From positions 1 to 50,166 of the forward strand of contig JAIOJF010000030.1 of NCBI GenBank assembly GCA_019911965.1: a DNA stretch of 50,166 bases. Reading direction: 5' to 3'. The position numbers and the translations under genes were made by a program. A model generated the notes under the pieces. It had not been told where the DNA came from and did not search any database. It was given only the letters and a program-made list of their open reading frames with translations. The stretch is from Paracoccaceae bacterium (GTDB lineage Bacteria > Pseudomonadota > Alphaproteobacteria > Rhodobacterales > Rhodobacteraceae). How positions within the stretch are numbered: position 1 is the stretch's first letter; the number at the start of each line of letters is the position of its first letter. This document shows positions 24,846-43,467 of the stretch, piece after piece.

Positions 24846-25766
24846 ATGCGGTTTCAGAAACTCGATCTTAACCTCCTGGTTACGCTTGACCGCCTGCTGA
24901 CCGAAAGAAGCATTTCACGGGCAGCCGAAAAACTGTATCTCAGTCAGTCGGCAACCAGCAGTGCGCTGGCGCGGCTGCGTGAATATTTTCAGGATGAACT
25001 TCTGGTCAGGGTCGGTCGCACCATGGTGCCAACCCCCCGGGCGCTTGAACTGTCGCAATCGGTGCGCGAGGTCCTGTTGCAGATCGAAGGCAGGGTAATC
25101 AAACGCCCTGAATTCGACCCCGCCCGGGAAAGCCGCGAAATCAGGATGATCGCATCAGATTATTCCCTGATCGCCGGCCTCGCCGCGGCCCTGATCGATA
25201 TCCGCGCCGAAGCCCCAAAGTTGCGCTTCGTATTCTCGCCGCAGCAATTGAACCCAAGGGAGGACCTGGAACGTGGCGAGGCCGATTTCCTGATTATCCC
25301 GGAAATGTACCTGTCGCCGCTGCATCCATCCCAGAAACTGTTCTCGGATGATTATTGTGTCGTCAGTTGGGATCAGAATACCTGCGATTATTCGACCATG
25401 AATGTGGGCGAATTCATGCACCAGAACCATGTCGCGGTGCAGTTTCCCAATTCAAAGCCCACATATGAATCCTGGGTAATCGAACGCTATGGCTCGGATC
25501 GCAATGTCGAGGTCACCGTCGGTTCCTTCGCGGCCGTGCCCTATCTTCTGATCGGCACCGATCGAATTTCCCTGATGCACCGCCGGCTTGCTGTCGAGCT
25601 TGGCAAGACCTTGCCGTTAAAGATATGCGAACCACCCATAGATATCCCGCGCATTGATGAATTCATTCAATGGCATATCTATAATGACGGCGATGAATGC
25701 CTGGCATGGGTGCGCAACAAGCTGGCGGCGTTCTTTCAGGACGAGACCGCAAGCGAAACCGACTGA
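24846..25766 (+). CDS. LysR-family transcriptional regulator (NodD/NahR-like group)
   Basis: This 306-residue regulator begins MRFQKLDLNLLVTLDRLLTE and continues with the helix-turn-helix SISRAAEKLYLSQSATSSAL. The effector domain has LRFVFSPQQLNPREDLERGEADF. The opening and helix-turn-helix resemble the NodD/NahR group, which often responds to aromatic inducers. It lies just upstream of, and in line with, the 25880 gene. The second LysR protein (35754-36677) is a close relative in the DNA-binding domain. Confidence 0.9.
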   Translation: MRFQKLDLNLLVTLDRLLTERSISRAAEKLYLSQSATSSALARLREYFQDELLVRVGRTMVPTPRALELSQSVREVLLQIEGRVIKRPEFDPARESREIRMIASDYSLIAGLAAALIDIRAEAPKLRFVFSPQQLNPREDLERGEADFLIIPEMYLSPLHPSQKLFSDDYCVVSWDQNTCDYSTMNVGEFMHQNHVAVQFPNSKPTYESWVIERYGSDRNVEVTVGSFAAVPYLLIGTDRISLMHRRLAVELGKTLPLKICEPPIDIPRIDEFIQWHIYNDGDECLAWVRNKLAAFFQDETASETD

Positions 25767-25812
25767 CTATTCGTCAGTCAAATCCGGCATATCATCTCTA
25801 TCAATTTGTCCG
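25767..25812 (+). promoter_or_regulatory. Candidate LysR-box region shared with the 29.5 kb promoter, copy 1
   Basis: Aligned without gaps to 29502-29547, this stretch matches at 32 of 46 positions. The conserved blocks are CTATTC, CAGTCAAAT, TATCA, CTAT and ATTTGT. It begins directly after the lysR stop and ends 68 bases before the 25880 start. The length and block spacing suit a LysR footprint. Confidence 0.55.
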
Positions 25813-25879
25813 TTTGTCACCCGGATTGTAGGCTGGAATTGCCCGGCTCTAGTGCCCGATAAACACCAACGGATATTGC

Positions 25880-26716
25880 ATGCCCGATCACCAGCACCCC
25901 CTGTGGCAACCGATGCGCAGTTCAATCATGGTCTCGGTCAGGGATGACAGCGACCTGCCCGCCGCCTATCGGTGGCTGTACAAGCACCATGTCAATGACA
26001 GCATCTCGCAATTCGCCCCCTATGTGACGAAATACGCCACCTATCGCGCCCTTCCCCTGCCAAAGGCCGGCGAAGATTTCGGCACCTATAATTTCATCAT
26101 GACCGAACATTACTGGCTGATCGACCCGTTCAACGGTTCTAAAACCGGTGCACCTGCCGGATTGGCATTCAATGAGCATTTCACCGACGAATATCTTGAA
26201 ATAACGCGTCAGCCAACCGGCATGGGATTGCGCCCGACCAGTTGGATGGGGTCACGCGATGGCTACCACCCGACCGCGTTCACCTTCCTGCCCCTGTTTT
26301 GGGAGGACGACTTCAAGGGCAGGCGATCCGTTGAAGATGGCCCCAATTATCGCTGGCAGTTTACCTTTGCCTATCCCGAGGGGGTTTCCTGCGATCAGGG
26401 CGATCAATGGTTCCGGCACGAGTTTGCCCCGGCGATTTGCGATCTGCCGCAGGTAACCCGCTTTTTCTCCAGCCGGGTTCTGAACAACCCGCGGAAATCG
26501 CCGTTTCACCGTTTCGCCGAGATCTGGTTTGAAAACAGCCGCGAATGGGAAGCAGCGATTGCAACCGTCAGAAACACGGTCCGGAAGCCGGACTGGGCGA
26601 CCTATGATGAGTTCCCGTTCTTTGAACCTTACAAGGATTTCGTCGGCGTTTTCCTGTTGGATCGGCCGGAATCCGATCATCTTCAGCAATTTCGCGGTTA
26701 TGTCACCACACGCTGA
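25880..26716 (+). CDS. EthD-like dimeric alpha/beta-barrel protein, function unknown
   Basis: This 278-residue protein is not recognised with certainty. Two half-repeats look EthD/ABM-like: SSIMVSVRDDSDLPAAYRWL at the front and DQWFRHEFAPAICDLPQV in the second half, each followed by strand-rich aromatic sequence. The ribosome site before the ATG is weak. The gene sits between a LysR gene and a PhlG-like gene. Small barrels of this type often act in polyketide or phenol metabolism as cyclases, monooxygenases or decarboxylases. The role here is open. Confidence 0.55.
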   Translation: MPDHQHPLWQPMRSSIMVSVRDDSDLPAAYRWLYKHHVNDSISQFAPYVTKYATYRALPLPKAGEDFGTYNFIMTEHYWLIDPFNGSKTGAPAGLAFNEHFTDEYLEITRQPTGMGLRPTSWMGSRDGYHPTAFTFLPLFWEDDFKGRRSVEDGPNYRWQFTFAYPEGVSCDQGDQWFRHEFAPAICDLPQVTRFFSSRVLNNPRKSPFHRFAEIWFENSREWEAAIATVRNTVRKPDWATYDEFPFFEPYKDFVGVFLLDRPESDHLQQFRGYVTTR

Positions 26717-26748
26717 ATTGCCCGAAACAGACAATACCGGAGGAACAT

Positions 26749-27372
26749 TTGGAATACACCGTCACGCATGATGATCTGGGAACCCATCTCGACTGGTCGC
26801 TGGAGGGCGTCACCGCCCATGAGGTTGACTGGTTCTGGAGCAATATGGAGAAGTGTTTCATCCTCTGGCACCCCGAACAGCATGAAACACTGAGTTGGCC
26901 CGTACCCCCGGTTCACGGCAACCCGATCGGGGCGATCCACAATGCGCCGCAAACCTGGGATGATGGTCGCAGGCAGGATCTCTACATTCGCTTTGAAGCG
27001 ATCGAATGGCTGAAGCCGGAACTCCGCGATGTGATTGCGCATGACCATGTGATTATCGCGGCAGGGCTGGGTTTCGGGGATGAGGCGCTGGAAAAGGCCG
27101 ACCCGATGGGATATCGCCTGCATCAGTGGAGCAAGTCCGATCGCGGCATCACGGGAAAATCGTCCGCCCTGCCGACGCGCATTCCCGAAACGGTTGAGCA
27201 GGGAAAAATCTGGGCCGCACATTGCGCCCAGGAGATCGGCAACTGGGAAGTATTCCTGCCGCAGCTTTACCGGCTCTACAAGGTGGTTACGGATACCCGG
27301 CGCAACCCGTGCAGCGACATGACGGTCGAGGGCAAGGGACGCAACGCATATTACAAGTTTATCAGCGCCTGA
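26749..27372 (+). CDS. Short PhlG-like (DAPG-hydrolase family) protein
   Basis: This 207-residue protein resembles the fold of 2,4-diacetylphloroglucinol hydrolase PhlG. It shares VDWFWSNMEKCFILWHPEQHE near residues 26-46 (quoted in part: WFWSNMEKCFILWHPEQH), and has an HxxxE pair in AAHCAQEIGNWE (H158, E162) where PhlG places two Zn ligands. It is about 80-90 residues shorter than PhlG and lacks the N-terminal extension. PhlG cuts the C-C bond between an acetyl group and a phloroglucinol ring. It lies 32 bases downstream of the EthD-like gene. Family assignment is from motif recognition; substrate unknown. Confidence 0.65.
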   Translation: MEYTVTHDDLGTHLDWSLEGVTAHEVDWFWSNMEKCFILWHPEQHETLSWPVPPVHGNPIGAIHNAPQTWDDGRRQDLYIRFEAIEWLKPELRDVIAHDHVIIAAGLGFGDEALEKADPMGYRLHQWSKSDRGITGKSSALPTRIPETVEQGKIWAAHCAQEIGNWEVFLPQLYRLYKVVTDTRRNPCSDMTVEGKGRNAYYKFISA

Positions 27373-27585: not shown

Positions 27586-28482
27586 TCATGCCTCCATCCG
27601 GCCACCGAATTCAGCGTAGATGCGCGGCAGGAAATACTTGAACCGCGTGAACTCCTTCACGTTGTGGCGCGCCAGGCCCTGAATTGCCTCGACCGGCACC
27701 GAAATCCCCGGCGGCAGTGACAATTCGGGCGTGCCATTCGACAGGCGATACCCCATCCAGAACCGCGTGCGATGCTCCAGCCCGTCAGGGTGCTGACGGA
27801 AAATGTGGCACATCATGGCCGGTGCAGTGATCGACATATCGGTCTTGTCAACCGTAACCGCCCAGCCTTGCCCGCCGGCAAAGGCGGAAACGAACGGTTC
27901 CTTGAAACGGCTTGTGTCAAACCCGAAACTGGTTGGCGACAGGAAATTGATATCAATGTTTTCCATGCCGCAATTGCAGTCTTCGGTGACATGGTGGATC
28001 TGCCCCCAGTTCTTTTCCGCAAACGGTACCGCAGGATCCAGCAGGCGTTTGCGCGCCTCGGGGCTGACCATGATGCCGCCATGTTGCGGCGGATACCAGA
28101 TGCGATAGCGCAGATCTTCCAGCGCGTGCCATGCAAACCACCAGTCGATCATGTCGGCGGTGATTTCCGGATAAATGATACGGTTGGCGATGAATCCGGC
28201 ACCGTTTTCAAGATTGCACCAGCCAATTTCAACATCCAGATCGCCGGGATTCAACAGATCGTTCATCTGGTGCGGCTCGATGGCCAGTGCCGGATCGCAG
28301 GGCTTGTCCATCTTCCCCAGATGTACGGGATCGGGTTCGGGGATTTCCTCGTAATAATACTTGGAAAACGGCCTCGCCTCTTCCTCCGGGGTCAGCGGCG
28401 GGCGCAGGGATTTGGCTTTGGTTGACGCGTACCAGTCGGCGAAATTCTTCTGGGCGCGGATTTCTGCGGTAGCGGTCGGCAT
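27586..28482 (-). CDS. PhlG-like (2,4-diacetylphloroglucinol hydrolase family) C-C hydrolase
   Basis: This 298-residue protein matches PhlG in size and key segments: EIGWCNLENGAGFIANRII, MIDWWFAWHALEDLRYRIWY and YPPQHGG, then HHVTEDCNCG and a late HxxxE in ARHNVKEFTRF (H273, E277). PhlG binds Zn through two His and two Glu residues; H134, E167, H273 and E277 are the candidates here. The ATG at 28482 has AGGAG upstream; the longer in-frame extension is rejected. It would hydrolyse an acyl-aryl C-C bond in an acylphenol. It follows the EthD gene in the same operon. Confidence 0.8.
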   Translation of the reverse strand: MPTATAEIRAQKNFADWYASTKAKSLRPPLTPEEEARPFSKYYYEEIPEPDPVHLGKMDKPCDPALAIEPHQMNDLLNPGDLDVEIGWCNLENGAGFIANRIIYPEITADMIDWWFAWHALEDLRYRIWYPPQHGGIMVSPEARKRLLDPAVPFAEKNWGQIHHVTEDCNCGMENIDINFLSPTSFGFDTSRFKEPFVSAFAGGQGWAVTVDKTDMSITAPAMMCHIFRQHPDGLEHRTRFWMGYRLSNGTPELSLPPGISVPVEAIQGLARHNVKEFTRFKYFLPRIYAEFGGRMEA

Positions 28483-28502
28483 CTTTATGGCTCCTCTGGT
28501 TC

Positions 28503-29288
28503 TCAGGCGTCCTGGGGGGTGTCGCGGATGATCACAACCTGCCGGGTGTAAAGGTAAAACGACTTCGACCAATTGGCGAAGGTCGTCGGATAGGCTTGCA
28601 TCGCCTCGAAATATTGGCGAAATGCGCCGACCTGTTCGATCGTGTCAAACCAGTGGCTGACCACCAGATCGTAAACCGGCGGATCGACCATTTTGAAATG
28701 CGCACGCGCCGCACCGTCGTTGTCGTTGATGCGGCAACGCTTGTTCATCACGCAGCGGCGCAACTGTTCCTTTGCATAGGGCGCATTTTCCATCGCGAAC
28801 GCATGCGCCTTACGCCAGTGCATGAGGTAATCCTCAAGAAACATGCTGTCATCCCGCATGATATATTGCAGCACCTTCATGCCACCCACACCCTTGACGA
28901 TGCCAAGGCCCGGATTGAAGCTTGGCACCGGGTTTGGCACCGCCACCTCCTCTTCTTCGGCCATGACGATGATGTTGGTGCATTCATCGGCAAAGAACTT
29001 GCCATCCTGCGAGGCGGCTGATGGAACGGCAGGTTCCAGCGTTTCCATCATGTCGCGAAAGTTGTCGAACCCAAGCTCGACAACCGCATCACGGTTTGCC
29101 ACCTGCTGGTGATTTGCATCCGCCAGTACGCCAAACGCACCATCAATCACATGGTTCTGCACATAGGTATTGATCTTGAATCGCTCCTGACGGGCGATGG
29201 TACCGTGATAGAATTCGATATATCGCTGATACTCCGCCCTTGTCAGGCCGGGGCGCCGCCGCGAGGCCGCCATCAATTTGATCGCCAT
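28503..29288 (-). CDS. EthD domain-containing protein (two repeats)
   Basis: This 261-residue protein has two EthD-type ferredoxin-like halves. The first is LMAASRRRPGLTRAEYQRYI...YHGTI, and the second is VLQYIMRDDSMFLEDYLMHW followed by RRCVMNKRCR. Each half has the conserved His near its first helix. The ATG at 29288 has GAGAGGA upstream; the 65-codon extension to 29483 is unlikely. EthD-like proteins support oxidative degradation of ethers and phenols, and some act as decarboxylases. It precedes the PhlG-like gene by 20 bases. Confidence 0.78.
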   Translation of the reverse strand: MAIKLMAASRRRPGLTRAEYQRYIEFYHGTIARQERFKINTYVQNHVIDGAFGVLADANHQQVANRDAVVELGFDNFRDMMETLEPAVPSAASQDGKFFADECTNIIVMAEEEEVAVPNPVPSFNPGLGIVKGVGGMKVLQYIMRDDSMFLEDYLMHWRKAHAFAMENAPYAKEQLRRCVMNKRCRINDNDGAARAHFKMVDPPVYDLVVSHWFDTIEQVGAFRQYFEAMQAYPTTFANWSKSFYLYTRQVVIIRDTPQDA

Positions 29289-29601
29289 GATTTTCCTCTC
29301 CCAATCTCCACGAGATGTCCCGACAAATTTATTGCTGGCACCGGGTTTGAGAAGTCGTTTCTGTGGAGATCGGGTATCAACCGAACGGATCAGTAAACGT
29401 GACAGCCAATGGATCCCGCGACCGGCCGGATGAAACGCAAGAAGGGCCAGGCGGACCGCAGCAGGAAAGTTGACCTGCGCCAATATCCCTGACAGCGACC
29501 GCTATTCACCAGTCAAATTTCCGCTATCACAACTATGGATTTGTTCGCATCCAAGGCCGCCGATAGGCTTGCGAAAACATGATGCGCAAACAGGAGGAAT
29601 T
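29289..29601. other. Divergent promoter region between EthD and flavin-monooxygenase genes
   Basis: This 313-base stretch has no supported gene. It separates divergent start codons at 29288 (minus) and 29602 (plus) and contains the candidate LysR-box region at 29502-29547. No other strong repeats were noticed. Confidence 0.6.
29502..29547 (+). promoter_or_regulatory. Candidate LysR-box region, copy 2
   Basis: This stretch matches 25767-25812 at 32 of 46 positions without gaps, including CTATTC, CAGTCAAAT, TATCA and ATTTGT. It lies 55 bases before the monooxygenase ATG and about 214 before the divergent EthD start, consistent with activation of one or both operons by a LysR protein. Confidence 0.55.
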
Positions 29602-30642
29602 ATGCGGTTTTCCTATATCGGCGGCCCACGACAGCGGCCCGATCTGAAACAGCCCGCAAAAGAGGCGTGGCAGAATTTCGTTGATGACGGCCTGCGCGCA
29701 GAAAAGCTGGGGTTTGATTCATTCTTTATTGGAGAACACCATTTCTGCTTTGCCTCTGGTAACAGCTCACCCTTCGTGATGCTGGCCGAAGTCGCGGCAC
29801 GTACCGAACGCATTCGCGTTGGCACCTCCATCACCTGCCTGCCGTTTCACAACCCCTTGCGCGTCGCCGAAGACATTGCGGCGGTCGATATCGTATCCAA
29901 AGGACGGTTTGATTTCGGCTTTGGCGTCGGCTCGCAATATCGCGAGTTCCACACCTTTGGCATTCCTTACAAAGACCGTTTCGCCCGCACCTGGGAAGCC
30001 GTCGACATCATTGAACGCTGTCTGAGCGGCATCGAGGAAGAATTCTCGCACGCGGGCAAGTACTATAATTTCCCTGATATCCGCTGGATCATCCCGCCCT
30101 ATCAGGAAAAGGTGCCGTTCTTTTGGGGTGGTTTCGGCCCGCAAGGTGTGAAACGCGCCGCTGAACGTGGCTTCAACCTGGTCGCGCCGGATGTCACCGG
30201 CATGTTCTGCAAGACAATCCGTGAAAGCGGCGGCAAGCCTGAGGACAAGTTTATCGGCTTCGCCCACCACTTGGCCGTCGGCAAGACCCGCGAGGCGGCG
30301 TTTGAAGCGATTGCCGAGCCATCCCTGTGGGTGAACAACATCTATGCAACGCGACGCGAGCTGGACGGCAGCTATCCACCGGAATCCAACCGCATCAGCA
30401 TGGAGGCCTTCCGCAAGGGCCATGCCGAAGGCAAACCGGTCGGCATGTTCGCCCCCATTGCCGGCACGGTCGAGGACGTTATCGAACGGTTCCTGCCCAT
30501 CGTGCGCGGCGAAACGGGCCTTATCAACCACATCATGCTTGAGTTCCGCCCGCCCGGAACAAAAACCGCCGATGTTGAACGTTCCATGACATTGTTCGCC
30601 AAAGAGGTCATGCCGGTGCTGAAAGCCGAAGCGAAATACTGA
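29602..30642 (+). CDS. LLM-class (luciferase-like) flavin-dependent monooxygenase
   Basis: This 346-residue bacterial-luciferase-fold protein has FDSFFIGEHHFCFASGNSSP, RIRVGTSITCLPFHNPLRVA, GRFDFGFGVGSQYREF and the FFWGGFGPQGVKRAAERGFN phosphate-binding region. An ideal AGGAGG site precedes the ATG at 29602; the longer in-frame ORF start at 29470 is inside the promoter region. Such enzymes use reduced FMN and oxygen for hydroxylation or Baeyer-Villiger reactions. With PhlG-like neighbours, oxidation of an acylphenol or derived ketone is plausible. A flavin reductase was not found in the window. Confidence 0.9.
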   Translation: MRFSYIGGPRQRPDLKQPAKEAWQNFVDDGLRAEKLGFDSFFIGEHHFCFASGNSSPFVMLAEVAARTERIRVGTSITCLPFHNPLRVAEDIAAVDIVSKGRFDFGFGVGSQYREFHTFGIPYKDRFARTWEAVDIIERCLSGIEEEFSHAGKYYNFPDIRWIIPPYQEKVPFFWGGFGPQGVKRAAERGFNLVAPDVTGMFCKTIRESGGKPEDKFIGFAHHLAVGKTREAAFEAIAEPSLWVNNIYATRRELDGSYPPESNRISMEAFRKGHAEGKPVGMFAPIAGTVEDVIERFLPIVRGETGLINHIMLEFRPPGTKTADVERSMTLFAKEVMPVLKAEAKY

Positions 30643-30892: not shown

Positions 30893-31861
30893 CTATCCTT
30901 TCAGCGCCACGACCCGCTGGTTGATTTCCCCGAAGACCGGCGCGTCTTCGCGCGTTCTGCATTCCATTCGCACGCAATCGCCAAAGGACATGTAGGCGGT
31001 TTCGGCGGCCCCCTTGTCCAGCAACTCGATCCCGCGCCGTTCCGCGATGCAGGATGATCCGATGTCCCGGAAATTGCTGTTTGAAACGGTGCCGGACCCG
31101 ATGATCGTGCCTGCAACGAGATGTCTGGTTCTTGCCGCATGGGCGACCAGTTCATCGAATCCATAGGACATTTCAAAACCTTCCGCCGCGCCAAACCGGG
31201 CACCATTGAAGTCAACGACCAAAGGCAGATCAACCCGCGCGTCCCGCCAGGCATCGCCCAGTTCATCCGGCGTCACTGCAACCGGAGCCATCGAACAGGC
31301 GGGCTTGGCCTGAACCCAGCCAAAGCCGGTTTTCATCTCGATCGGGGCCAGCGTGCGCAAGGACCAGTCGTTGATCTGCACGACAAGACGGATATGGCCT
31401 CGGGCGGTTACGACATCGGTTGCCATCGGCACGGCATCACAGATCACCCCGAATTCGCCCTCAAAATCAATGCCATCCGCCTCGCTGGGCAGAGGTACAT
31501 CGGCCGTTGGGGGCAGAAAACGGTCCGACAGGCCCTGATACATAAGCGGCCGCCCTTTCGGGGTCGGGTCCAGTTTGAACACTTTTTGCATCAGATCGCC
31601 GTGGCTGTCATAGGCCGAACCATCCAGCCATTGCCACGCGCGCGGCATCGGCGCGAGGGCTGAACCCGGGTCAAACGCCTCCCCCGCGCCGTCATTGAGC
31701 CGGGCATATTGCGCTTCAAGTTCTGGAGCCAGCGCGGACCAGTCCTCCATCAGCATCTGGAGGGTCAAAACATTGTCGGCTGGTGCGGCCCGCGCCAGGT
31801 CGCGGCTGACCACGTGCAGTCGCCCATCGGCGGTTCCATTGCGCAGGGTTGCAAGTTTCAT
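30893..31861 (-). CDS. Fumarylacetoacetate hydrolase (FAH)-family protein
   Basis: This 322-residue protein has the FAH-family C-terminal fold with metal-site segments GIDFEGEFGVICDA (acidic ligands), VVQINDWSLR, KPACSMAPVAVTPDELG and AGTIIGSGTVSNSN. Members hydrolyse beta-diketone C-C bonds or hydrate and decarboxylate dienoic acids after aromatic ring cleavage. Its start overlaps the epimerase stop (ATGA), and it is the last gene of the operon led by the LysR or FAD-monooxygenase gene. It is a good candidate for processing the ring-cleavage product. Confidence 0.88.
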   Translation of the reverse strand: MKLATLRNGTADGRLHVVSRDLARAAPADNVLTLQMLMEDWSALAPELEAQYARLNDGAGEAFDPGSALAPMPRAWQWLDGSAYDSHGDLMQKVFKLDPTPKGRPLMYQGLSDRFLPPTADVPLPSEADGIDFEGEFGVICDAVPMATDVVTARGHIRLVVQINDWSLRTLAPIEMKTGFGWVQAKPACSMAPVAVTPDELGDAWRDARVDLPLVVDFNGARFGAAEGFEMSYGFDELVAHAARTRHLVAGTIIGSGTVSNSNFRDIGSSCIAERRGIELLDKGAAETAYMSFGDCVRMECRTREDAPVFGEINQRVVALKG

Positions 31862-33359: not shown

Positions 33360-33369
33360 GTTCCACCTC

Positions 33370-34530: not shown

Positions 34531-34552
34531 TGGCGGCGCTCCTGTCAGGGGG

Positions 34553-35674: not shown

Positions 35675-35722
35675 TGTTCTTGTCTCCCCATTGCAACCTG
35701 GCCCAGACTAAATTCGCCAAAG

Positions 35723-35737
35723 CCATTAGGAAAATGG
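35723..35737. promoter_or_regulatory. Short palindrome before FAD monooxygenase gene
   Basis: CCATTAGGAAAATGG has five-base inverted arms around a five-base spacer, 49 bases upstream of the monooxygenase start, in the 79-base gap after lysR. It could be an internal operator for the enzyme genes. Support is limited to symmetry and position. Confidence 0.3.
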
Positions 35738-35753
35738 AAAGACTTGATCCGAC

Positions 35754-36677
35754 CTATTGATCCGGTGAATGCGATGCCATACGTGCCGCCGCCATTTCAA
35801 AAGTCGAGCGCAGCCAACTGATTCCGGGATCAAGATCGCGATAGGCATGCCATTGGATCATCTGCTGCAAGGGTTGGGCTTCAAAAGGAAGCGGGTGAAT
35901 ATCCAGGTCGTTCTTGCCTGCAACCAGTTCGGCAAGCCGCTTGTGAACCGTGGCAACCCGGCTTGTTCCGGCAACCAGATATGGCAGGTTTGAAAATGAA
36001 AATGTCCGGACATCAGCTTTGCGCTTGATGCCCGCACTTTCAAGGAAACCATATTCGATCGCCCCTGCATTGTTTGGCGGAACCATGACCACATGCGAGG
36101 CAGCTTCAAACGCTGCCAGGTCCAAGACAGCCTTGCCGTAAGGGCCGTTCTTGCAAGCGACGACTACGTATTCGTCTTCAAACAGCAACGAAGACGGGTG
36201 ATCCCTGGAGGTGAAGGGCTCCGGCGTCACCAACAGGTCAACTTCGCCCTTTTCCAGAAGGGTATATGGCGCGTCGGTCTGCGGAATAAGGTTGAAGCGG
36301 ACGGTGGCGTCCTGTGCTTCGCCAACGGCAAGGACATGCGGCATCAATACGCGCATGGTGTAATCGGACAGAACGATATTGAATACCCGCGTCGATTGAT
36401 CCGGATGGAACTCAAGCTCGGTGTCGATCGTCGCTTCGATCCGCACAAGAATGTCGCGAATGGCAGGCCGCAGAACCTCGGCGCGCGGCGTCAGATTCAT
36501 CTGCCTGCCGACCTGCACCAGCAAGGGATCGTCAAAATAGGTACGAATGCGGGTCAGCGCATTCGACATGGCTGACTGGCTCATGAACATCTTGTCGGCA
36601 GCGGCACTGACCGAACGTAGCTCCAGCATGTGGTCAAGCGCGACCAGCAGATTGAGATCAAGCCGTTTGAACCGCAT
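35754..36677 (-). CDS. LysR-family transcriptional regulator (second copy)
   Basis: This 307-residue protein begins MRFKRLDLNLLVALDHMLEL. It has the helix-turn-helix SVSAAADKMFMSQSAMSNAL and an effector domain with VRFNLIPQTDAPYTLLEKGE. The ATG at 36677 follows AAAGGAG; an ATG 18 bases upstream is less likely. It is transcribed in the same direction as the monooxygenase-hydrolase operon and divergently from the VOC dioxygenase operon. A symmetrical LysR box lies in the shared gap. It is related to the 24.8 kb LysR protein, most clearly in the first 60 residues. Confidence 0.9.
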   Translation of the reverse strand: MRFKRLDLNLLVALDHMLELRSVSAAADKMFMSQSAMSNALTRIRTYFDDPLLVQVGRQMNLTPRAEVLRPAIRDILVRIEATIDTELEFHPDQSTRVFNIVLSDYTMRVLMPHVLAVGEAQDATVRFNLIPQTDAPYTLLEKGEVDLLVTPEPFTSRDHPSSLLFEDEYVVVACKNGPYGKAVLDLAAFEAASHVVMVPPNNAGAIEYGFLESAGIKRKADVRTFSFSNLPYLVAGTSRVATVHKRLAELVAGKNDLDIHPLPFEAQPLQQMIQWHAYRDLDPGISWLRSTFEMAAARMASHSPDQ

Positions 36678-36736
36678 GGATTGCTCCTTTGGCATCTCGG
36701 GTGTTGAGTGTCAGGAAGATGGGTCAAGGTTAATGT

Positions 36737-36751
36737 ATTGACGAGATCAAT
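36737..36751. promoter_or_regulatory. LysR box (T-N11-A) in divergent lysR/dioxygenase promoter
   Basis: ATTGACGAGATCAAT has five-base inverted arms ATTGA/TCAAT and contains the classic T-N11-A spacing. It lies 60 bases upstream of the lysR start and 79 bases upstream of the dioxygenase start, the usual position for a LysR regulatory site. Confidence 0.6.
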
Positions 36752-36829
36752 TCAACACATCAAAAGTTCCAATTTTTTAGATGCAAAACAGTCAGCTAAG
36801 AGTTGTCCAAACAGACTGGAGACTGAACA

Positions 36830-37759
36830 ATGCGAATTATCGGACCTGACGAGCTTGTTTTCGGCGTGGACAACGTCAAGGCCTGCGAAACCTTCCTTGT
36901 GGATTACGGTCTGGCATCAGTCGGCAATGGCCGCTTTACCGCCCTGGACAACACCGCGATTACAGTGCGCGAAAAATCCGATCCGTCACTGCCCGCGCCA
37001 CTGAAAACGGCCACCATGCTGCGCCAGACCATTTGGGGGGTCGAGGATCAGGCGACGCTGGATCAGATCGAGGCCGAACTGTCCCGGGACCGCGCGGTGG
37101 CGAAAGCCGCCGACGGCACCTTGAGTTGCAAGGATGACAGTGGTTTTGAACTGGCCTTTCGCATCACCCGGCGGACCGTTCTGAACCTGCCTGCCGAATT
37201 GATCAATTCGCCGGGTGCCGCCCCCGGGCGTGCTGTCAACGCAATCGGCGCGAATGAGGACGCCGAGGCTAAGCCGCGTACCCTCAGCCATATCGTGTAC
37301 TTCCTGCCCAACATGGACGAGGCGGCCAGATTCTACACCGACCGCCTGGGCTTTGTCGTCACCGACAAGTTCACCAATACCGGCCCGTTCCTGCGTCCGC
37401 AGGCCAATAACGACCACCATGTGCTGTTCATGATCCAGACACCGGATTACATGCAGGGCCTTGAGCATCTGGCCTTTCACATGCAAGGCCCGACCGAATT
37501 GATGCTGGCCGGATCGCGCATGGTCAAGAAAGGCTACGAGAGTTTTTGGGGGCCGGGTCGTCACAAGTTCGGATCGAACTGGTTCTGGTACTTCAACTGC
37601 CCGCTGGGGACGCATTTTGAATACGACGCCGACATGGACAAGCATGACGGCGAATGGATCGAACGTGAAACCGCGCTGACCAAGGAAGCCTCGCAGATGT
37701 TCCTGTTCGAGAATGTCGAGAAATGGTCTCCGGGTGGTCCGCCGCCGGACGCGAAATGA
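36830..37759 (+). CDS. VOC-family extradiol-type dioxygenase
   Basis: This 309-residue protein has two vicinal-oxygen-chelate halves, like catechol 2,3-dioxygenases. The C-terminal catalytic half has TLSHIVYF (H154), GLEHLAFH (H213) and GTHFEYDADMD (E264), matching the two-His-one-Glu Fe(II) site, with HKFGSNWFWYF preceding the Glu. The N-terminal half is degenerate, as usual. It heads the plus-strand operon with Rieske, cyclase and TRAP genes. It probably cleaves the hydroxylated ring, although other VOC activities (ring-product isomerase, lyase) cannot be excluded. Confidence 0.85.
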   Translation: MRIIGPDELVFGVDNVKACETFLVDYGLASVGNGRFTALDNTAITVREKSDPSLPAPLKTATMLRQTIWGVEDQATLDQIEAELSRDRAVAKAADGTLSCKDDSGFELAFRITRRTVLNLPAELINSPGAAPGRAVNAIGANEDAEAKPRTLSHIVYFLPNMDEAARFYTDRLGFVVTDKFTNTGPFLRPQANNDHHVLFMIQTPDYMQGLEHLAFHMQGPTELMLAGSRMVKKGYESFWGPGRHKFGSNWFWYFNCPLGTHFEYDADMDKHDGEWIERETALTKEASQMFLFENVEKWSPGGPPPDAK

Positions 37760-38118
37760 TGCCAGAACCGCAATTCCTGTGCCAACTAGACGAGATCGAG
37801 GAAGGCCGTTCCAAAGGTGTCGCCCCGAACCGTCGCGGGCGGGATCGTATCCTGTTGGCGCGACGGGACGGTGAGGTTTACGGATATGTCAACACATGCC
37901 CGCATTACGATCGTGCGCCAATGGCATGGAAGAAAGACGAATTTCTGAATGCTGACGGCACGCGGATCATGTGCGCGTCGCATGGGGCGTTGTTTCGTAT
38001 CGAAGACGGGGTTTGCGAGGTTGGGCCATGCCTCGGGCAAGTCCTTAGACGCGTTGACGTATTCATCCGGGAGGGTGCCGTTTATGGCGTGAACCTTCCC
38101 GAAGAACCGAAAGTCTGA
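37756..38118 (+). CDS. Rieske [2Fe-2S] ferredoxin-like protein
   Basis: The small protein of about 120 residues carries CPHYDRAPM and MCASHGALFRIEDG, giving CxH...CxxH for a Rieske cluster. Two adjacent ATGs (37756, 37759) overlap the dioxygenase stop, so the genes are coupled. Similar Rieske proteins pass electrons to ring-hydroxylating oxygenases; none is seen here. It may instead keep the extradiol enzyme's iron reduced, as ferredoxins do for some catechol dioxygenases, or serve another oxygenase elsewhere. Confidence 0.88.
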   Translation: MMPEPQFLCQLDEIEEGRSKGVAPNRRGRDRILLARRDGEVYGYVNTCPHYDRAPMAWKKDEFLNADGTRIMCASHGALFRIEDGVCEVGPCLGQVLRRVDVFIREGAVYGVNLPEEPKV

Positions 38119-38180
38119 CGCCGGCGACGAGCGATGAAGCATCGAAGGCCCACGGATCCAGGGGCGATTGGGAGAAGATC

Positions 38181-38954
38181 ATGTCACGCAAGATCATCGA
38201 TTTGTCGGTTTCGCTGACGGATACGATCAAATCGGACCCGCCCGGCCTGGGGCCGGAAATCGACTATCTCGATCATGCCGGCGGGGCGGTCGAGTTCGAG
38301 AAGATGTTCGGCGTGCCGCCGGGCGCTCAACGTGACGGCGCAGGCCCGGCCAGCGAACGTTGCCGGATCACGACACATAACGGCACCCATATGGACGCGC
38401 CCTGGCATTATCATCCGACGATGGATGGCGGGGCGCGGGCGATCACGATCGACGAGGTTCCGCTGGAATGGTGCATGGGCCGGGGCGTCAAGCTGGATTT
38501 CCGTGACAAGCCCGACGGGCATACCGTCTCGGCAGCCGAGGTCGGGGGGGAATTGGAGCGCATCGGGCACGATCTGCAGCCGGGCGATATTGTCGTGGTC
38601 AATACCGCGGCGGGTGCCCGCTATGGTCAGGACGATTATGTCGCCACGGGCTGTGGCATGGGGCGCGAAGCAACGTTGTTCCTGACGGCACGGGGTGTCA
38701 GGGTCTGCGGCACCGACGCCTGGAGCTGGGACCCGCCACTGATGACGCAGGCGATCAGGGCGCGCGAAACCGGCGACTGGTCGGTGTTCTGGGAAGGCCA
38801 CAAGGCGGGCGCGGACACCATCTATTGCCATATGGAAAAGCTTGCGAATTTGCATCTGCTGCCATCAACTGGCTTTGAAATCATTGCCCTGCCGGTGAAG
38901 GTTGCCGGCGGGTCCGCGGGTTGGTGCCGCGCAATCGCATTGCTGGATACCTAA
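38181..38954 (+). CDS. Cyclase-family (kynurenine-formamidase-like) hydrolase
   Basis: This 257-residue metal hydrolase has the strict cyclase motif HNGTHMDAPWHYH and later DIVVVNTAAGARYGQDDY plus RVCGTDAWSWDPP. It belongs to the same broad family as the protein at 12.1-12.9 kb, but the two are not close. Cyclase-family enzymes open lactones or cyclic amides, and some cut vinylogous 1,3-diones formed from polyhydroxylated rings. It is between the Rieske and TRAP genes. A ring-opening or lactone step is a reasonable inference. Confidence 0.85.
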   Translation: MSRKIIDLSVSLTDTIKSDPPGLGPEIDYLDHAGGAVEFEKMFGVPPGAQRDGAGPASERCRITTHNGTHMDAPWHYHPTMDGGARAITIDEVPLEWCMGRGVKLDFRDKPDGHTVSAAEVGGELERIGHDLQPGDIVVVNTAAGARYGQDDYVATGCGMGREATLFLTARGVRVCGTDAWSWDPPLMTQAIRARETGDWSVFWEGHKAGADTIYCHMEKLANLHLLPSTGFEIIALPVKVAGGSAGWCRAIALLDT

Positions 38955-38984
38955 AGAATGAACCGGCACGTTCCCGAGGGAATC

Positions 38985-40907
38985 ATGACACGCAACACGT
39001 TCATTATCGCTCTTAATCGCTGGGCCGAGAAGGCAACCGGCCTTGTCTCGGTTGTCGCCATTGCGGGGTTGTTGATCGGGGCGTCGATCATCGTTCTGGA
39101 TGTCACCGGACGGTGGCTGTTCGGCACCTCGATCGTGGCATTGAACGAAATGATGTCGTCGATTTTCGCGATGGCTATCGCGGCGACCTTTCCGGCGGGG
39201 GCGACAAATCGGGTTCATCTGAAGGTCGATCTGCTGGCGCATGTCACCGGCACCAGACTGACCGCCTGGCTGCATCTGGCGGGCTCGGTTCTTCTGACGC
39301 TTTTCTTTTCCATTCTGGCATGGCGCATTTTCGATCTTTCAATACGCTATCTTGAGCAAGGGAATGCCACGTCGCTGCTGCATCTGCCTTTATGGCCGGT
39401 CTATCTGGTGGTGTCGGTCTTGATGGCGGCAACGGCGCTCGTGCAGTTCCTTCATGTGGTCAACGACACCAGGGCAGCCATCGCCACATCAGGCGACCGG
39501 CGCTCGCATGTTGGCGTGCTCGTTTGCATGACCGCGCTGGCGGTCATTGTGTTCGCAGGGCTGGGCTGGGCCATCTGGGACCTGAAGGGGTATTCCGGAT
39601 TTGTCGCCGGGCATCCGGGAACGGCGGTTGGTTTCGCCTTTGCCGTGTTGTGGCTGGGCGTCCTGGCCCAATTGCCGCTGGCGACGGTGACGGCCTTCAT
39701 CGGCATAGCGGGAACACTGGCCTATGTCGGCACCCCGGCAGCGATCAACGCATTTTCCGGCGATTCGATCAGGTTCCTGCGTGACGAACAGGTTGTCACC
39801 CTGCCATTGTTCCTGATCATGGGGGCGTTTTCCGTGGCGGCCGGGGTCTCGGAAGATCTGTTCCGGCTCGGCAATGCCCTGCTGGGGCGGTTTCGCGGCG
39901 GACTTGCCTATGCGACAATTGCCGGATGTGCCGGGTTTGGCGCAGTCTGTGGCAGTTCGATTGCCACTTCGGCCACCTTTGGCCGCATGGCGCTGCCGTC
40001 AATGTCGAGATTGGGCTATGCCCAGTCATTGTCCACAGCGTCGGTCGCGGCAGGGGGCACGCTTGGCGCGCTTGTGCCACCCTCCGGGGCAATCATCATG
40101 TTTGCATTGCTGACCGAGGAATCCATCGGAGCCTTGTTCATGGCCGCAATGATCCCCGCGGCGCTGGCAATATTGCTGTACTTTTGCGCGGTGTTCATAA
40201 TGGTCAGGTTGAAGCCCGAACTGGCACCGGACGTGACAATCGGGGCTCCGGGCGAGTTCTTTCACGCCTTGCGCGGAGCTATTCCGGTGGTGGTCATGTT
40301 CGGCATCGTGATCGGCGGCCTTTATGGCGGCCTGTTCACCGCAACCGAAAGCGCCGCGGTCGGGGCAGTTGGCGCATTCCTGCTGGCCCTGGGGCGCGGC
40401 AAGTTGAACCGTTCCTCGATCCTGCAGGTATTCTCGCAGACCACGGCCACGACGGCGATGATCTATGCGCTGATCTTTGGCGGGCTGATGTTCTCCTTTT
40501 ATGTGAATCTCGGGCAGACCCCGGACATGGTCAGCGCCTGGATCGCGTCACTGGACGCCAAGCCTATTGTGGTCCTGATAATCCTGATCATCATCTATCT
40601 GTTGCTTGGATCGGTCATGGACAGCTTCGGGGTCATGATCATCACCGTCCCGGTTGTCACGCCGCTGATCCTTCATCTGGGGTATGACATGCTGTTCTGG
40701 GGGGTTCTGATGCTGGTCGTGGTAGAGATCGGCATGATCACCCCGCCGTTCGGCATGAACCTGTTCATCATCAAGAGCCTCGATCCCGAAGTGAGGCTAT
40801 CGACCGTCATGAAAGGTGTCTTGCCGTTCATTCTGGCGGACCTCGTCAAGATTGCCCTGCTGGTCGGCATACCCGCATTGTCGTTGTGGCTGCCTTCGAC
40901 GATGTAG
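38985..40907 (+). CDS. Fused TRAP transporter permease (DctQ-DctM fusion)
   Basis: This protein of about 640 residues joins a small permease domain (about 1-170, four membrane segments, with VLDVTGRWLFGTSIVALNEM) to a large permease domain (about 210-640) with CGSSIATSATFGRMALPSMS, ALVPPSGAIIMFALLTEES, GSVMDSFGVMIITVPVVTP and ITPPFGMNLFIIKSL. The ATG at 38985 has GAGGGA upstream and is preferred to the ATG at 38958. Fused QM permeases need only a separate binding protein; the convergent gene at 41.3-42.3 kb supplies a likely one. It closes the dioxygenase operon. Confidence 0.9.
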   Translation: MTRNTFIIALNRWAEKATGLVSVVAIAGLLIGASIIVLDVTGRWLFGTSIVALNEMMSSIFAMAIAATFPAGATNRVHLKVDLLAHVTGTRLTAWLHLAGSVLLTLFFSILAWRIFDLSIRYLEQGNATSLLHLPLWPVYLVVSVLMAATALVQFLHVVNDTRAAIATSGDRRSHVGVLVCMTALAVIVFAGLGWAIWDLKGYSGFVAGHPGTAVGFAFAVLWLGVLAQLPLATVTAFIGIAGTLAYVGTPAAINAFSGDSIRFLRDEQVVTLPLFLIMGAFSVAAGVSEDLFRLGNALLGRFRGGLAYATIAGCAGFGAVCGSSIATSATFGRMALPSMSRLGYAQSLSTASVAAGGTLGALVPPSGAIIMFALLTEESIGALFMAAMIPAALAILLYFCAVFIMVRLKPELAPDVTIGAPGEFFHALRGAIPVVVMFGIVIGGLYGGLFTATESAAVGAVGAFLLALGRGKLNRSSILQVFSQTTATTAMIYALIFGGLMFSFYVNLGQTPDMVSAWIASLDAKPIVVLIILIIIYLLLGSVMDSFGVMIITVPVVTPLILHLGYDMLFWGVLMLVVVEIGMITPPFGMNLFIIKSLDPEVRLSTVMKGVLPFILADLVKIALLVGIPALSLWLPSTM

Positions 40908-41315
40908 CAGGGTGTGAAACAGGAAACATCGTGCCCTTGGTCAGGGCCGTATGGCCATTGGCGTATCGCGGAGTATCCCTGTTCCCGACAACGTTCGCCC
41001 CCGATACTGTCGGCTGCATCAACACCCAATGTCAGGCATTTCCGGGCGATGGCTCAAGGGTGTATTCAATGTCAATGAACCGGATTGCAACCTGCGCCAA
41101 CCCGAGGGGCGATCCGTCGCTGCGCTGTCAAGATCGGCCTGATCGGGGCTGCGATCTGGCGGTACGGCACTGGCAACCGCGGTGTCAGCCAAAATCAACT
41201 GGTTTTCAAACAGCCTACGGACAGACCAAGGCCGGCTGAGCGATCAACCGGCCTTGTCATTGTCAGGAAGGTTTTCAGACGGGGGGCAGTTTGAACCGCC
41301 CCCTGTCCATGTCGG
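40908..41315. other. Gene-free stretch between convergent TRAP genes
   Basis: These 408 bases lie between the stop of the fused permease and the stop of the TRAP binding protein. Short open frames exist on both strands but none has a ribosome site or a recognisable family. The only clear structure is the stem-loop at 41227-41256. Confidence 0.5.
41227..41256. terminator. Bidirectional stem-loop between convergent genes
   Basis: CAAGGCCGG (41227-41235) pairs perfectly with CCGGCCTTG (41248-41256) around a 12-base loop. There is no long T tract. It is 60 bases beyond the stop of the minus-strand binding-protein gene and could end transcripts from both sides. Confidence 0.6.
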
Positions 41316-42323
41316 TTATTCTGCGTCGGCCTTGGCCACCTGTTCGCGCCACAGGGCGATCAGTTCCTCGCCACCGGGAACCCGCGACGCGTAGCCTTTG
41401 GCAACCGCGTCGGACACGCGACCCCTCAGCTCGGCCAGATCCGCGTCGGAGATCTCGGTAAAGGTGTGGCCCTCCTGGGCCATCACAAATGCCTTTGAAT
41501 CCGCCTCCCACTGATCGACCTTGGCACCGGTTTCGCGGGCCAGGTCGCAGCCGGAATTTGCTTTCAGAACGGCCTGCGCTTCGGGGGACAGGGCATCGAA
41601 CCGTGCGCGGGTCATGAAGGCAAGACCGGTCGCACCGCCCAGGGGCACATCCAGATGATCGGTTGTAACCTCGTTCAGGCGGAACCCGGGAAACGCGGTA
41701 TAGGTCATGAAAGTTCCATCAGCGGTGCCGCGTTGAAGGGCCTGATACTGGTCCTGAATATTGATCGACAACGGCGTGCCGCCATAGGCCTGAATGATCC
41801 CGGCAGCCGCCGGGGCCTGTGTCATGATCTTCTTCCCGGCAATATCCTGCATCGACGTCAGCGGCGAACCGTTCAGATGCGCACCAACCTGCGGGAAAGG
41901 TACGATCAACAAAGGCACATATTTCGCCCATTCATCACCGAAATCGCCGTTTTCCAGCATGCGGCAGAATGCGACCGCCGCTGCGGCAGACGATCCGTCA
42001 ACCAACGGCGTGGTTGACACGAGCGATCTGGGGAAGTTTCCCGGTGCGAAGACCGGCAAGCCCCATGTAATCTGCACAACGTCATCGGTCAGGCGATCGA
42101 GAAAGTTGCCGGGATTGATCAGCATCCCGCCGTGGCGCATGTCGATCTGGATGGCGTCGCCACCTTCCGCATTCACGCGTTCGACCCAAGGTGCCAATAT
42201 CCGCTTGATGATCGGATGCTGTTCGACGTTGCCGCTGCCGAAAATCAGCGTTTCGGCTGATGCGGCTGTGCAGACAGCCAGCGATGCCGTTGCCAGGGCG
42301 CTTGCAAAAAGTAGGCTCTTCAT
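41316..42323 (-). CDS. TRAP transporter periplasmic binding protein (DctP-like)
   Basis: This 335-residue protein opens with a Sec signal (MKSLLFASALATASLAVCTA, cleavage near ASA-ET). The mature part is a TRAP receptor with SPLTSMQDIAGKKIMTQAPA and FMTYTAFPGFRLNEVTTDHL. The ATG at 42323 has GGAGGAAGAC upstream. It has no permease of its own and faces the fused QM permease gene across a convergent gap, so it probably works with it. A separate promoter allows different expression levels. Confidence 0.88.
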   Translation of the reverse strand: MKSLLFASALATASLAVCTAASAETLIFGSGNVEQHPIIKRILAPWVERVNAEGGDAIQIDMRHGGMLINPGNFLDRLTDDVVQITWGLPVFAPGNFPRSLVSTTPLVDGSSAAAAVAFCRMLENGDFGDEWAKYVPLLIVPFPQVGAHLNGSPLTSMQDIAGKKIMTQAPAAAGIIQAYGGTPLSINIQDQYQALQRGTADGTFMTYTAFPGFRLNEVTTDHLDVPLGGATGLAFMTRARFDALSPEAQAVLKANSGCDLARETGAKVDQWEADSKAFVMAQEGHTFTEISDADLAELRGRVSDAVAKGYASRVPGGEELIALWREQVAKADAE

Positions 42324-42402
42324 GTCTTCCTCCAACAAAACTGTGGCCGGGACCGGCCTCAGCTTTCACTCTAGTCGCAGCGTGGACTTTTGAATATTTG
42401 AT

Positions 42403-42419
42403 TGATTGAATTGTAATCA
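42403..42419. promoter_or_regulatory. Palindrome upstream of TRAP binding-protein gene
   Basis: TGATTGAATTGTAATCA has five-base inverted arms around a seven-base AT-rich spacer, 80 bases upstream of the start at 42323. Position and symmetry suggest an operator, possibly for one of the LysR proteins. Support is weak. Confidence 0.3.
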
Positions 42420-42567
42420 TTGATGCGCTGAATGTATGTGGCGCGTCATCCCCCGGCAGGACCCTTTCGCAGCACAGCCTGAATGAACGGCGGCAGCGAC
42501 ATCGCGCGCGTCAGATATCGGGTTGTCCAGGCGTATCGGCTATAATGGATGGCCAGCACCCCGGGGA

Positions 42568-43467
42568 TCAGTAGGTCTGCAGATCTTCGCTGATCGAAAC
42601 GGTTCCGGCAAAACGCGCCGCAATGCGGGCGATGTAACCCGGTGCCGTTTCAGGGGTTGCCAGACCGGGCGGCAAATGCGTTGCCACAACGTGCTTTGCC
42701 CCGGCAACACGCGCCAGATCGCCCAATTGTTCCGCGCTCAGATGATGCTCGGCAATATGTTTGCCGATCTTGGCAATTGCGGCATCCGGCATATGCGGAT
42801 TCATCGTGCGCACTTTGCGCATCGTCAGATCGGCATCCATCATTTCACCCACCAGCAGGTCTACGCCGCTGGCCAGTTTTTCCACCGCCTTGCACGCGCC
42901 GGTATCGCCGGTGAACAGGATGCTGCGGTCCGCCAGATCGAACCTGTAAGACAGCGACAGATATCCCGGCCTGCCGGATTCGGATTCCGGCCGGTAATGG
43001 GTATTCTCGCAATTGGTGACGCTCAGGCCCTCAAGCTCAACGACATCGCCCGGTACGATTTCATGAACCGAGACAAAATCCCGTATTTGTGGCAAGCTCT
43101 GCCCCGGCACGCCAAACCCGATTTCCTGCGGAACCGCACTGGCGGCAATCAGGCCATCGACAATTTTCTGCGTTCCCGGCGGGCCATAGATCGACAAGGG
43201 CGTCTTGCGCATCGTCATCATATTGACGCCAAGGCAGGTGAACAGGCTGCCGATATGGTCAAAATGATGATGTGTCAGGAAGATTTCTGCCACATCCCGG
43301 AACTCGACACCGGCGCGGCGCAATTGGCGAATGGCCCCTTCGCCGCAATCGACCAGAACAGGCTTCGTGCCGTTCATCAACAGATGGGCGGGCTGGCTGC
43401 GCGCCGGGTTCTGCACGGGTCCGCCACCGGTTCCAAGGGTGGTAAAACTCGAAGGGTTCGGGGCCAT
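42568..43467 (-). CDS. MBL-fold metallo-hydrolase (RNase Z/arylsulfatase-like group)
   Basis: This 299-residue metallo-beta-lactamase-fold enzyme has LTHHHFDHIGSLFTCL as the main metal motif, LVDCGEGAIRQL before it, ILFTGDTGACKAV with the bridging Asp, and VATHLPPG near the end. The start MAPNPSSFTTLGTGGGP resembles the RNase Z-like subgroup that also contains arylsulfatases and lactonases. In a catabolic region, hydrolysis of an ester, sulfate or lactone is likelier than RNA processing. It lies upstream of, and in line with, the TRAP binding-protein gene, with a 244-base gap. Confidence 0.85.
   Translation of the reverse strand: MAPNPSSFTTLGTGGGPVQNPARSQPAHLLMNGTKPVLVDCGEGAIRQLRRAGVEFRDVAEIFLTHHHFDHIGSLFTCLGVNMMTMRKTPLSIYGPPGTQKIVDGLIAASAVPQEIGFGVPGQSLPQIRDFVSVHEIVPGDVVELEGLSVTNCENTHYRPESESGRPGYLSLSYRFDLADRSILFTGDTGACKAVEKLASGVDLLVGEMMDADLTMRKVRTMNPHMPDAAIAKIGKHIAEHHLSAEQLGDLARVAGAKHVVATHLPPGLATPETAPGYIARIAARFAGTVSISEDLQTY

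Follow-up and report, generated by a model that had tools for sequence, protein, structure and literature searches.

Adjoining chalcone isomerase and oxygenase gene units in an alphaproteobacterial locus predicted to degrade flavonoids

The window analyzed here, a stretch of 50,166 nucleotides from a Paracoccaceae bacterium (assembly GCA_019911965.1, contig JAIOJF010000030.1, positions 1 to 50,166; contig C8 of the 3.67 Mb genome G000), contains genes for a bacterial chalcone isomerase (CHI), a phloretin hydrolase homologue and a small protein, x207, with the predicted fold of the 2,4-diacetylphloroglucinol (DAPG) hydrolase PhlG, as well as homologues of a phloroglucinol pathway to their left and a set of oxygenase genes to their right. 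We interpret these as a flavonoid catabolic locus of two joined units, a CHI/phloretin-hydrolase/phloroglucinol route (unit 1, about 5.3-30.6 kb) beside an oxygen-dependent route (unit 2, 30.9-42.3 kb), and give this interpretation as a whole a probability of about 0.75; it is drawn from family membership, fold, gene order and co-occurrence, from which we infer each reaction and substrate in the organism. That the locus degrades flavonoids of some kind is very probable.

A preliminary description of positions 24,846-43,467, made from the DNA sequence, had proposed a locus for breakdown of acylated polyphenols. All of the open reading frames (ORFs) named in it were found at the places given in an ORF listing of the window, and Pfam searches of the window proteins agree with the families it listed (two LysR regulators, an FAD hydroxylase, a luciferase-type protein, VOC and Rieske proteins, FAH and cyclase hydrolases, and a TRAP importer), with 26749-27372 alone among them lacking a match at 0.001. 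It missed CHI, the phloroglucinol-type lower pathway, a cupin (32751-33359) and a short-chain dehydrogenase/reductase (SDR, 31858-32754), and the pathway reaches leftward beyond its coordinates, to about 5351. The central genes are these:

21734-22993, + strand: LVIVD beta-propeller protein, a second CHI-associated family of unassigned function (Pfam, 9.7e-13)
23004-23981, + strand: 2-hydroxyacid dehydrogenase, a possible arylpyruvate reductase (Pfam, 2.5e-53)
25880-26716, + strand: bacterial CHI (PF18232, Chalcone_N, 3.3e-28; PDB 3zph, 5.2e-52)
26749-27372, + strand: x207, a 207-aa CHI-associated PhlG-fold protein, candidate auronol C-C hydrolase (fold, profile match, co-occurrence)
27586-28482, - strand: phloretin hydrolase/PhlG family protein (PF18089, 9.6e-69; PDB 5xe5, 3.5e-34, and 3hwp, 5.7e-26)

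The protein encoded at 25880-26716, previously taken for one of two EthD-like proteins (the other, at 28503-29483, is indeed one), matches the Chalcone_N domain with 98.5 bits against a cutoff of 25. Its PDB match, 3zph, is the Eubacterium ramulus CHI, and in the ungapped phmmer alignment His33, Asp36 and His73 of that enzyme correspond to H37, D40 and H77 in the window. In 40 aligned CHI rows including that of the window, H37 is His in 39 with one gap, D40 is Asp in 37 and Glu in two with one gap, and H77 is His in all 40. In the E. ramulus enzyme His33 is the acid-base catalyst, Asp36 is water-bridged, and His73 lies near the substrate and is reported not to be catalytic (PMC9694015). The window CHI is thus predicted from its sequence to isomerize chalcones and flavanones. 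CHI is seldom found in the phylum, being present in two of 147 relatives and in one of 398 Pseudomonadota genomes (that of the window itself); a pattern-based scan covering 84,980 species, each by a single genome, gave 36 CHI loci, six of which (L010-L014 and L023) are proteobacterial in the old sense by record title. Silicimonas and a Desulfobacteraceae metagenome-assembled genome (MAG) each encode a second, more distant CHI-like protein (26-28% identity to the window CHI) close to their CHI and x207 genes, at L010:9203-9991 and L014:2340-3098, and the L010 copy matches PF18232 at 7.8e-8. Another distant relative (26%), annotated as hypothetical, is encoded on a plasmid of Novosphingobium sp. 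EMRT-2 (L009:14890-15717), where it adjoins genes for a PQQ dehydrogenase and an acyl-CoA ligase.

The gene at 27586-28482, part of a longer ORF (27586-28572, - strand), was correctly described as PhlG-like. Its product contains the DAPG_hydrolase domain (PF18089) with 231.8 bits against a cutoff of 22.7, and thus shares fold and family with PhlG. However, it is nearer to phloretin hydrolase (5xe5), its best PDB sequence match with PhlG (3hwp) behind, and falls far under the NCBIfam DAPG-hydrolase equivalog NF047887 (89.1 bits against a cutoff of 600). In an alignment of the PhlG family 26 columns are invariant in all 11 rows, among them E167, H226, H273 and E277, which we take to be metal or catalytic residues. 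PF18089 is found in 18 of 33 CHI genomes and in nine of 398 Pseudomonadota genomes, a rough contrast between unmatched groups, most CHI genomes not being Pseudomonadota. Among the CHI genomes compared, that of the Holophagaceae MAG CTSoil_007 (G563, the genome of L044) has the most matches to PF18089 (nine) and the most strong copies of x207 (four).

The relationship of x207 to this family is not evident from its own sequence, which matches no Pfam family at 0.001 and nothing significantly among PDB sequences; a search of PDB sequences with the x207 profile likewise gave no matches. Against PF18089 the window protein scores 0.0071 (16.4 bits, under the gathering cutoff of 22.7), and all seven family members scanned match weakly, the best at 5.1e-5. 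Profile-to-profile alignment with the PhlG family (hhalign) gives a probability of 97.3 and an E-value of 2.3e-11, and an AlphaFold model built with 10 sequences has a pLDDT of 91.4 and a pTM of 0.89. The five best Foldseek matches of this model in the PDB are four chains of phloretin hydrolase (7.8e-8) and one of PhlG (3.4e-7; TM by query 0.58), followed at lower ranks by other Bet v 1/START-like proteins. As modelled, x207 therefore has the PhlG fold, in agreement with the structure that had been foreseen for it.

The zinc site that was expected along with the fold is only partly there. The invariant Glu and His residues of the family presumably bind zinc in PhlG, and those in the aligned part are H119, E167, H226, H273 and E277; x207 keeps the last three as H125, H158 and E162. 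His45, His125, His158 and Glu162 are invariant in all ten x207 sequences.

A possible role for x207 is suggested by its association with CHI. Nine of 33 CHI genomes have a strong match (E 5.6e-71 or better), and relaxing the threshold to 0.001 raises this to 13, the additional four (G547, G549, G554 and G559) being weak, at 7e-15 to 3e-11. In samples picked without regard to CHI, x207 was found in one of 398 Pseudomonadota genomes (that of the window) and in two of 226 genomes in the class of Clostridium nigeriense, one of them the centre genome and both with CHI; in genome G727 the x207 and CHI genes are about 1.3 kb apart. x207 is therefore associated with CHI across phyla.

The LVIVD protein is likewise associated with CHI. 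Near CHI (up to 10 kb on each side, with some loci much shorter), LVIVD is present at 26 of 39 loci and x207 at seven, with both at one locus and neither at seven. At the level of whole genomes we compared 34 CHI genomes, consisting of G000, G727 and 32 of the 33 used above, the second Clostridioides difficile genome (L028) being omitted. Of these, 27 have a strong LVIVD match (E 1e-140 or better), with one more weak match in G545, and x207 is strong in 11; seven have strong x207 only, 23 LVIVD only, four both (G000, G533, G546 and G563), and none has neither. Fisher tests of x207 against LVIVD give 3.6e-5 for 32 loci, 6.1e-5 for the 34 genomes and 1.9e-4 without G727. The 32-locus test left out L008, L028, L041 and L043 (C. 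difficile, kept as L026), L039 and L040 (short) and L044 (partial CHI), and scored L012 and L015 as x207 although x207 lies about 10-11 kb off. These tests exaggerate the case, because the pattern needs just four label changes on the CHI tree (shuffled mean 9.1) and because G727 was picked for having x207; the small number of changes means that few independent events lie behind the pattern.

Which reaction might tie these proteins to CHI is suggested by a step for which the literature names no gene: a 2025 paper expects the auronol alphitonin to be cleaved "by an unknown enzyme" (PMC12203004). In a gut bacterium 3,4-dihydroxyphenylacetate is a reported end product from quercetin, taxifolin and alphitonin, and 3,4-dihydroxyphenylpyruvate has been proposed as a hypothetical intermediate (PMC11170127). 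Clostridium butyricum cleaves flavanones, with no CHI gene identified and no ring contraction to auronols observed in the available account (PMC11868195), and CHI-tied genes are therefore expected on the auronol branch. Moreover, genes like those for 2-oxoacid:ferredoxin oxidoreductase, phosphotransacylase and acetate kinase occur together at seven of the 39 CHI loci (families taken from the L018 copies, other loci by homology), alongside x207 at L007, L018, L130 and L012 (x207 at about 10 kb) and alongside LVIVD at L016, L019 and L020. Judged by its families, such a module could convert an arylpyruvate to an arylacetate with a gain of ATP, and its presence in CHI clusters leads us to propose, tentatively, that x207 hydrolyzes the CHI product alphitonin. 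More tentative still is the suggestion that x207 and the LVIVD protein are two unrelated enzymes for one missing step, auronol cleavage to phloroglucinol and arylpyruvate. Every CHI genome among the 34 compared has at least one of the two and the window locus has both, and the co-occurrence pattern provides two candidate genes for alphitonin cleavage.

Several observations weigh against this proposal. Gln68 replaces the family-invariant Glu167 in all ten x207 sequences and Ser31 stands opposite the invariant His119, so the metal site may be different or inactive; no strong x207 match was seen in 23 of the 34 CHI genomes (with weak ones in four of these); and the Leptolinea loci L019 and L020 have the oxidoreductase module and LVIVD without x207. 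Catenibacillus scindens degrades flavonols with no CHI recognizable in the published account (PMC11170127), and CHI is therefore not always needed for such chemistry. The substitutions at Glu167 and His119 would suit an appreciable possibility of another kind, that x207 is not a hydrolase but a binding or isomerase partner of CHI, holding a chalcone or auronol in a Bet v 1-like pocket, and the fold does include plant PR-10 ligand carriers, one of them solved with catechin; the four residues invariant in all ten sequences and the rank of phloretin hydrolase as top fold match speak against it.

The lower part of unit 1 lies to the left of these genes:

5351-6283, - strand: BKACE protein, NCBIfam equivalog 3,5-dioxohexanoate:acetyl-CoA acetone transferase, the last step of a phloroglucinol route (Pfam, 5e-105; NF053538, 534 bits, cutoff 430)
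6286-10995, - strand: branched-chain-type ABC importer with two permeases, two ATPases and a binding protein (Pfam)
10985-12025, - strand: 3-hydroxyacyl-CoA-dehydrogenase-like protein, resembling triacetate-forming dehydrogenase (TfD) (Pfam, 1.8e-52; 45% to the L018 homologue)
12067-12912, - strand: cyclase-family hydrolase, resembling dihydrophloroglucinol cyclohydrolase (DPGC), with a W-P-Y motif (Pfam, homology)
13022-13894, + strand: IclR regulator (Pfam)
15863-18825, + strand: TRAP importer, DctP-DctQ-DctM (Pfam)
20122-20916, + strand: SDR resembling phloroglucinol reductase (PGR) (39-44% to SDRs of L007, L012, L018 and L023; 33% to L015)
20949-21734, + strand: HpcH/HpaI aldolase (Pfam)

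These include homologues, by family, of all four enzymes of the Clostridium scatologenes phloroglucinol pathway (PGR, DPGC, TfD and TAL; PMC10470551), divided between two groups of the locus, and a phloroglucinol arm is quite probably present. The PGR-, DPGC- and TfD-like proteins and the BKACE protein are 31-50% identical to counterparts in the CHI clusters L007, L012, L018 and L023. The diagnostic residues are Trp20 and Tyr22 in DPGC, Ser/His/Asn in TfD, Trp16 in TAL and a TR(S/N) motif in PGR (PMC10470551). The DPGC pair is present as W-P-Y in 12067-12912, as aligned with the CHI-cluster homologues, and the TfD residues are present in 10985-12025 in an alignment by eye, a weak indication since they are common to other hydroxyacyl-CoA dehydrogenases. 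The TfD-like protein is under the cutoff of all 19 NCBIfam models listed, as is the 2-hydroxyacid dehydrogenase at 23004-23981. A carnitine-type reading of the BKACE and 3-hydroxyacyl-CoA-dehydrogenase-like pair was rejected, since NF053538 is passed and two carnitine dehydrogenase models are far under their cutoffs (156 of 592 and 132 of 414 bits). In Silicimonas (L127) the SDR (73%), cyclase (82%) and dehydrogenase (56%) are contiguous with the ABC importer, with no BKACE match within the 19.5 kb fetched, and CHI and x207 are on another contig. A phloroglucinol cluster has already been reported in marine alphaproteobacteria (PMC10470551).

Counting against the phloroglucinol arm, the proteins with which the four homologues were compared come from CHI clusters and owe their own names to family and gene order. 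Although it passes the 3,5-dioxohexanoate cutoff, the BKACE protein does not have Trp16 of CsTAL, with Ile-His there as in L023, and the TR(S/N) motif was not seen at its expected place in the SDR, a position that is itself uncertain. Against the interpretation as a whole, a single query, the L018 copy of the Fcr-like FMN reductase that adjoins CHI in anaerobes, found no homologue in the window, and nothing obvious therefore makes a dihydrochalcone. The L018 2-oxoacid oxidoreductase, phosphotransacylase and kinase also have no homologues in the window. Compared with flavonoid degradation in E. ramulus and Flavonifractor plautii (CHI, Fcr and phloretin hydrolase), the locus shares a CHI with the catalytic His, a phloretin hydrolase homologue and, as we infer, phloroglucinol as product, but differs in having no Fcr-like homologue, in its alphaproteobacterial host and accompanying oxygenase genes, and in the presence of both x207 and LVIVD.

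Unit 2 occupies the right half of the locus:

30893-31861, - strand: FAH-family hydrolase (Pfam; 76% in G014, 62% in Roseomonas L006)
31858-32754, - strand: epimerase-type SDR (Pfam; 34% in Roseomonas L006)
32751-33359, - strand: cupin, IfcD-type candidate (Pfam, 7.5e-9; 44-46% in L005/L006)
33370-34530, - strand: alpha/beta hydrolase like 2,6-dihydroxypseudooxynicotine (DHPON) hydrolase (PDB 2jbw, 3.3e-17; 83% in G014)
34553-35674, - strand: group A FAD monooxygenase, FdeE/IfcA-type candidate (Pfam; 71% in G014)
35754-36695, - strand: LysR regulator (Pfam; LysR 59% in G014)
36830-37759, + strand: VOC extradiol-dioxygenase-like protein, FdeC/IfcB-type candidate (Pfam; 80% in G014, 64% on Bradyrhizobium elkanii pUSDA76)
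37723-38118, + strand: Rieske ferredoxin (Pfam; 54% in G014)
38181-38954, + strand: second cyclase-family hydrolase (Pfam; 72% in G014)
38958-40907, + strand, and 41316-42338, - strand: TRAP importer, fused DctQ-DctM and DctP (Pfam; 59% and 52% in G014)

The ifc cluster of Variovorax contains an FAD monooxygenase that is a C8-hydroxylase, a VOC enzyme (65.8% to FdeC), a DHPON-like hydrolase and cupins (PMC11069340), and the fde operon of Herbaspirillum seropedicae and its FdeE are described in PMC11303751. The same four gene types occur together in the window, plus hydrolase and regulator genes, and an fde-type arm is likely present; the window unit differs from fde and ifc in its linkage to CHI and phloretin hydrolase. 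The likeness is one of gene content. The resemblance of 33370-34530 to DHPON hydrolase that had been pointed out is borne out by 2jbw, which is second to a Yellowish-green-1-like hydrolase (8qd7, 1.3e-17); the gene is part of a longer ORF (33370-34590, - strand), and the start at 34530 agrees with the G014 homologue, which matches from residue 21. Deletion of the DHPON-like gene of ifc left daidzein degradation unaffected according to the available text (PMC11069340), so that the DHPON-like protein finds no support as a third deacylase; of the three acyl-aryl C-C hydrolases initially proposed, the other two are borne out as PhlG-like in family or predicted fold.

From these components the following scheme can be put together. 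In unit 1, CHI would open flavanones to chalcones and, in a reaction reported from E. ramulus CHI, convert flavanonols (taxifolin, for example) by ring contraction into auronols (alphitonin); the phloretin hydrolase homologue would cut (dihydro)chalcones where the acyl carbon joins the phloroglucinol ring, and x207 would make the equivalent cut on the auronol, giving phloroglucinol and an arylpyruvate that the neighboring 2-hydroxyacid dehydrogenase may reduce, the last of these assignments being a guess. The PGR-, DPGC- and TfD-like proteins and BKACE would then reduce phloroglucinol, open its ring, and oxidize and cleave what results. In the fde/ifc-like unit 2 the FAD monooxygenase would hydroxylate the A-ring and the VOC dioxygenase would open it, with hydrolysis of the products to follow. 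The parts correspond to known routes, and their combination is new as far as we found: among the open-licence papers listed in searches on CHI, alphitonin and LVIVD, none describes such a set of genes in its title or the start of its abstract, or gives x207 or LVIVD a part in the breakdown of flavonoids. The earlier statement of knowing no described pathway with such a combination agrees with this for the whole, but the right half resembles the described fde and ifc clusters, which already pair an FAD monooxygenase, a VOC dioxygenase and a DHPON-like hydrolase. The locus suggests that an alphaproteobacterium can pair a phloroglucinol route described from an anaerobe with an oxygenase route for the same class of plant compounds.

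The two units recur separately in relatives. Window positions 5351-30642 are matched, in rearranged gene order, on contig C6 of G006, a genome of the same genus (also counted as G533), whereas 30893-42338 recurs largely as one block in G014, from another genus of the same family, with no match to the cupin or the epimerase-type SDR at the cutoff used. This comparison of gene neighborhoods, which had been suggested at the outset, shows unit 1 kept in G006 and most of unit 2 in G014. It leaves some room for an explanation that we regard as unlikely, namely that two unrelated loci, one for flavanones and flavanonols and the other for a different hydroxylated aromatic, are neighbors by chance or through a shared regulator or importer. 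G014 has no CHI match; G006 has no close VOC match in its genome, nor any close counterpart of unit 2 genes within the 40 kb retrieved, and six other CHI genomes also have no close VOC match (seven of seven with G006, two having weak ones); and a LysR gene and an importer are present in both units. Among 101 relatives a close VOC protein is found only in the window's genome and G014 (80%), the next near-full-length matches being at 36% (G090 and G113). Against separate functions, the content of unit 2 matches a published isoflavone cluster, which is also for flavonoid catabolism (PMC11069340). A plasmid of Roseomonas mucosa carries much of the unit 2 set, and B. elkanii pUSDA76 carries a smaller part. 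On the Roseomonas plasmid (L006:12985-15091) the FAD monooxygenase gene is annotated as two pieces flanking an IS5-family transposase.

In chemical terms chalcones, dihydrochalcones and open auronols count as acylphloroglucinols, and the acylphloroglucinol-like substrate first suggested is right to the extent that the locus probably deacylates a polyphenol and opens its ring. A role in breaking down or detoxifying acylphloroglucinols from microbes or plants (DAPG, for example), to which the two PhlG-fold proteins could point, is by contrast very improbable given the equivalog score of 27586-28482, on which DAPG detoxification was set aside, the lead of phloretin hydrolase over PhlG as its PDB match, and the CHI gene, whose presence in the same module favors flavonoids. 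The initial interpretation is thus partly supported, being right in outline, with flavonoids the better reading of the substrate class.

The remaining genes of the locus are the following:

23983-24696, + strand: 237-aa protein without family (no Pfam match at 0.001; 74% in G006)
24846-25766, + strand: LysR regulator of the CHI module (Pfam; 84% identity in G006)
28503-29288, - strand (ORF 28503-29483): EthD-domain protein, 261 aa with the start as used (Pfam, 2.5e-12; adjoins phloretin hydrolase in G006 too)
29470-30642, + strand: luciferase-like FMN/F420 oxidoreductase (Pfam, 1.7e-53; 92.6% in G006)
42568-43467: metallo-beta-lactamase fold protein (Pfam)

The EthD protein (261-aa form) and the luciferase-like oxidoreductase are 89% and 93% identical in G006, where they also accompany CHI and phloretin hydrolase. 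The AlphaFold model of the EthD protein, from two sequences, is of low confidence (pLDDT 39). The real start of the oxidoreductase is probably downstream of the annotated one, and the protein could supply the absent reductase step. With 267 bits, a nitroreductase-family protein encoded at 14694-15359 exceeds the NCBIfam threshold of 152 bits for malonic semialdehyde reductase. The fde-like unit, for which no counterpart was found in G006, is followed closely on its right by a tRNA-Ser (GGA) gene at 44279-44368 that could mark an insertion boundary.

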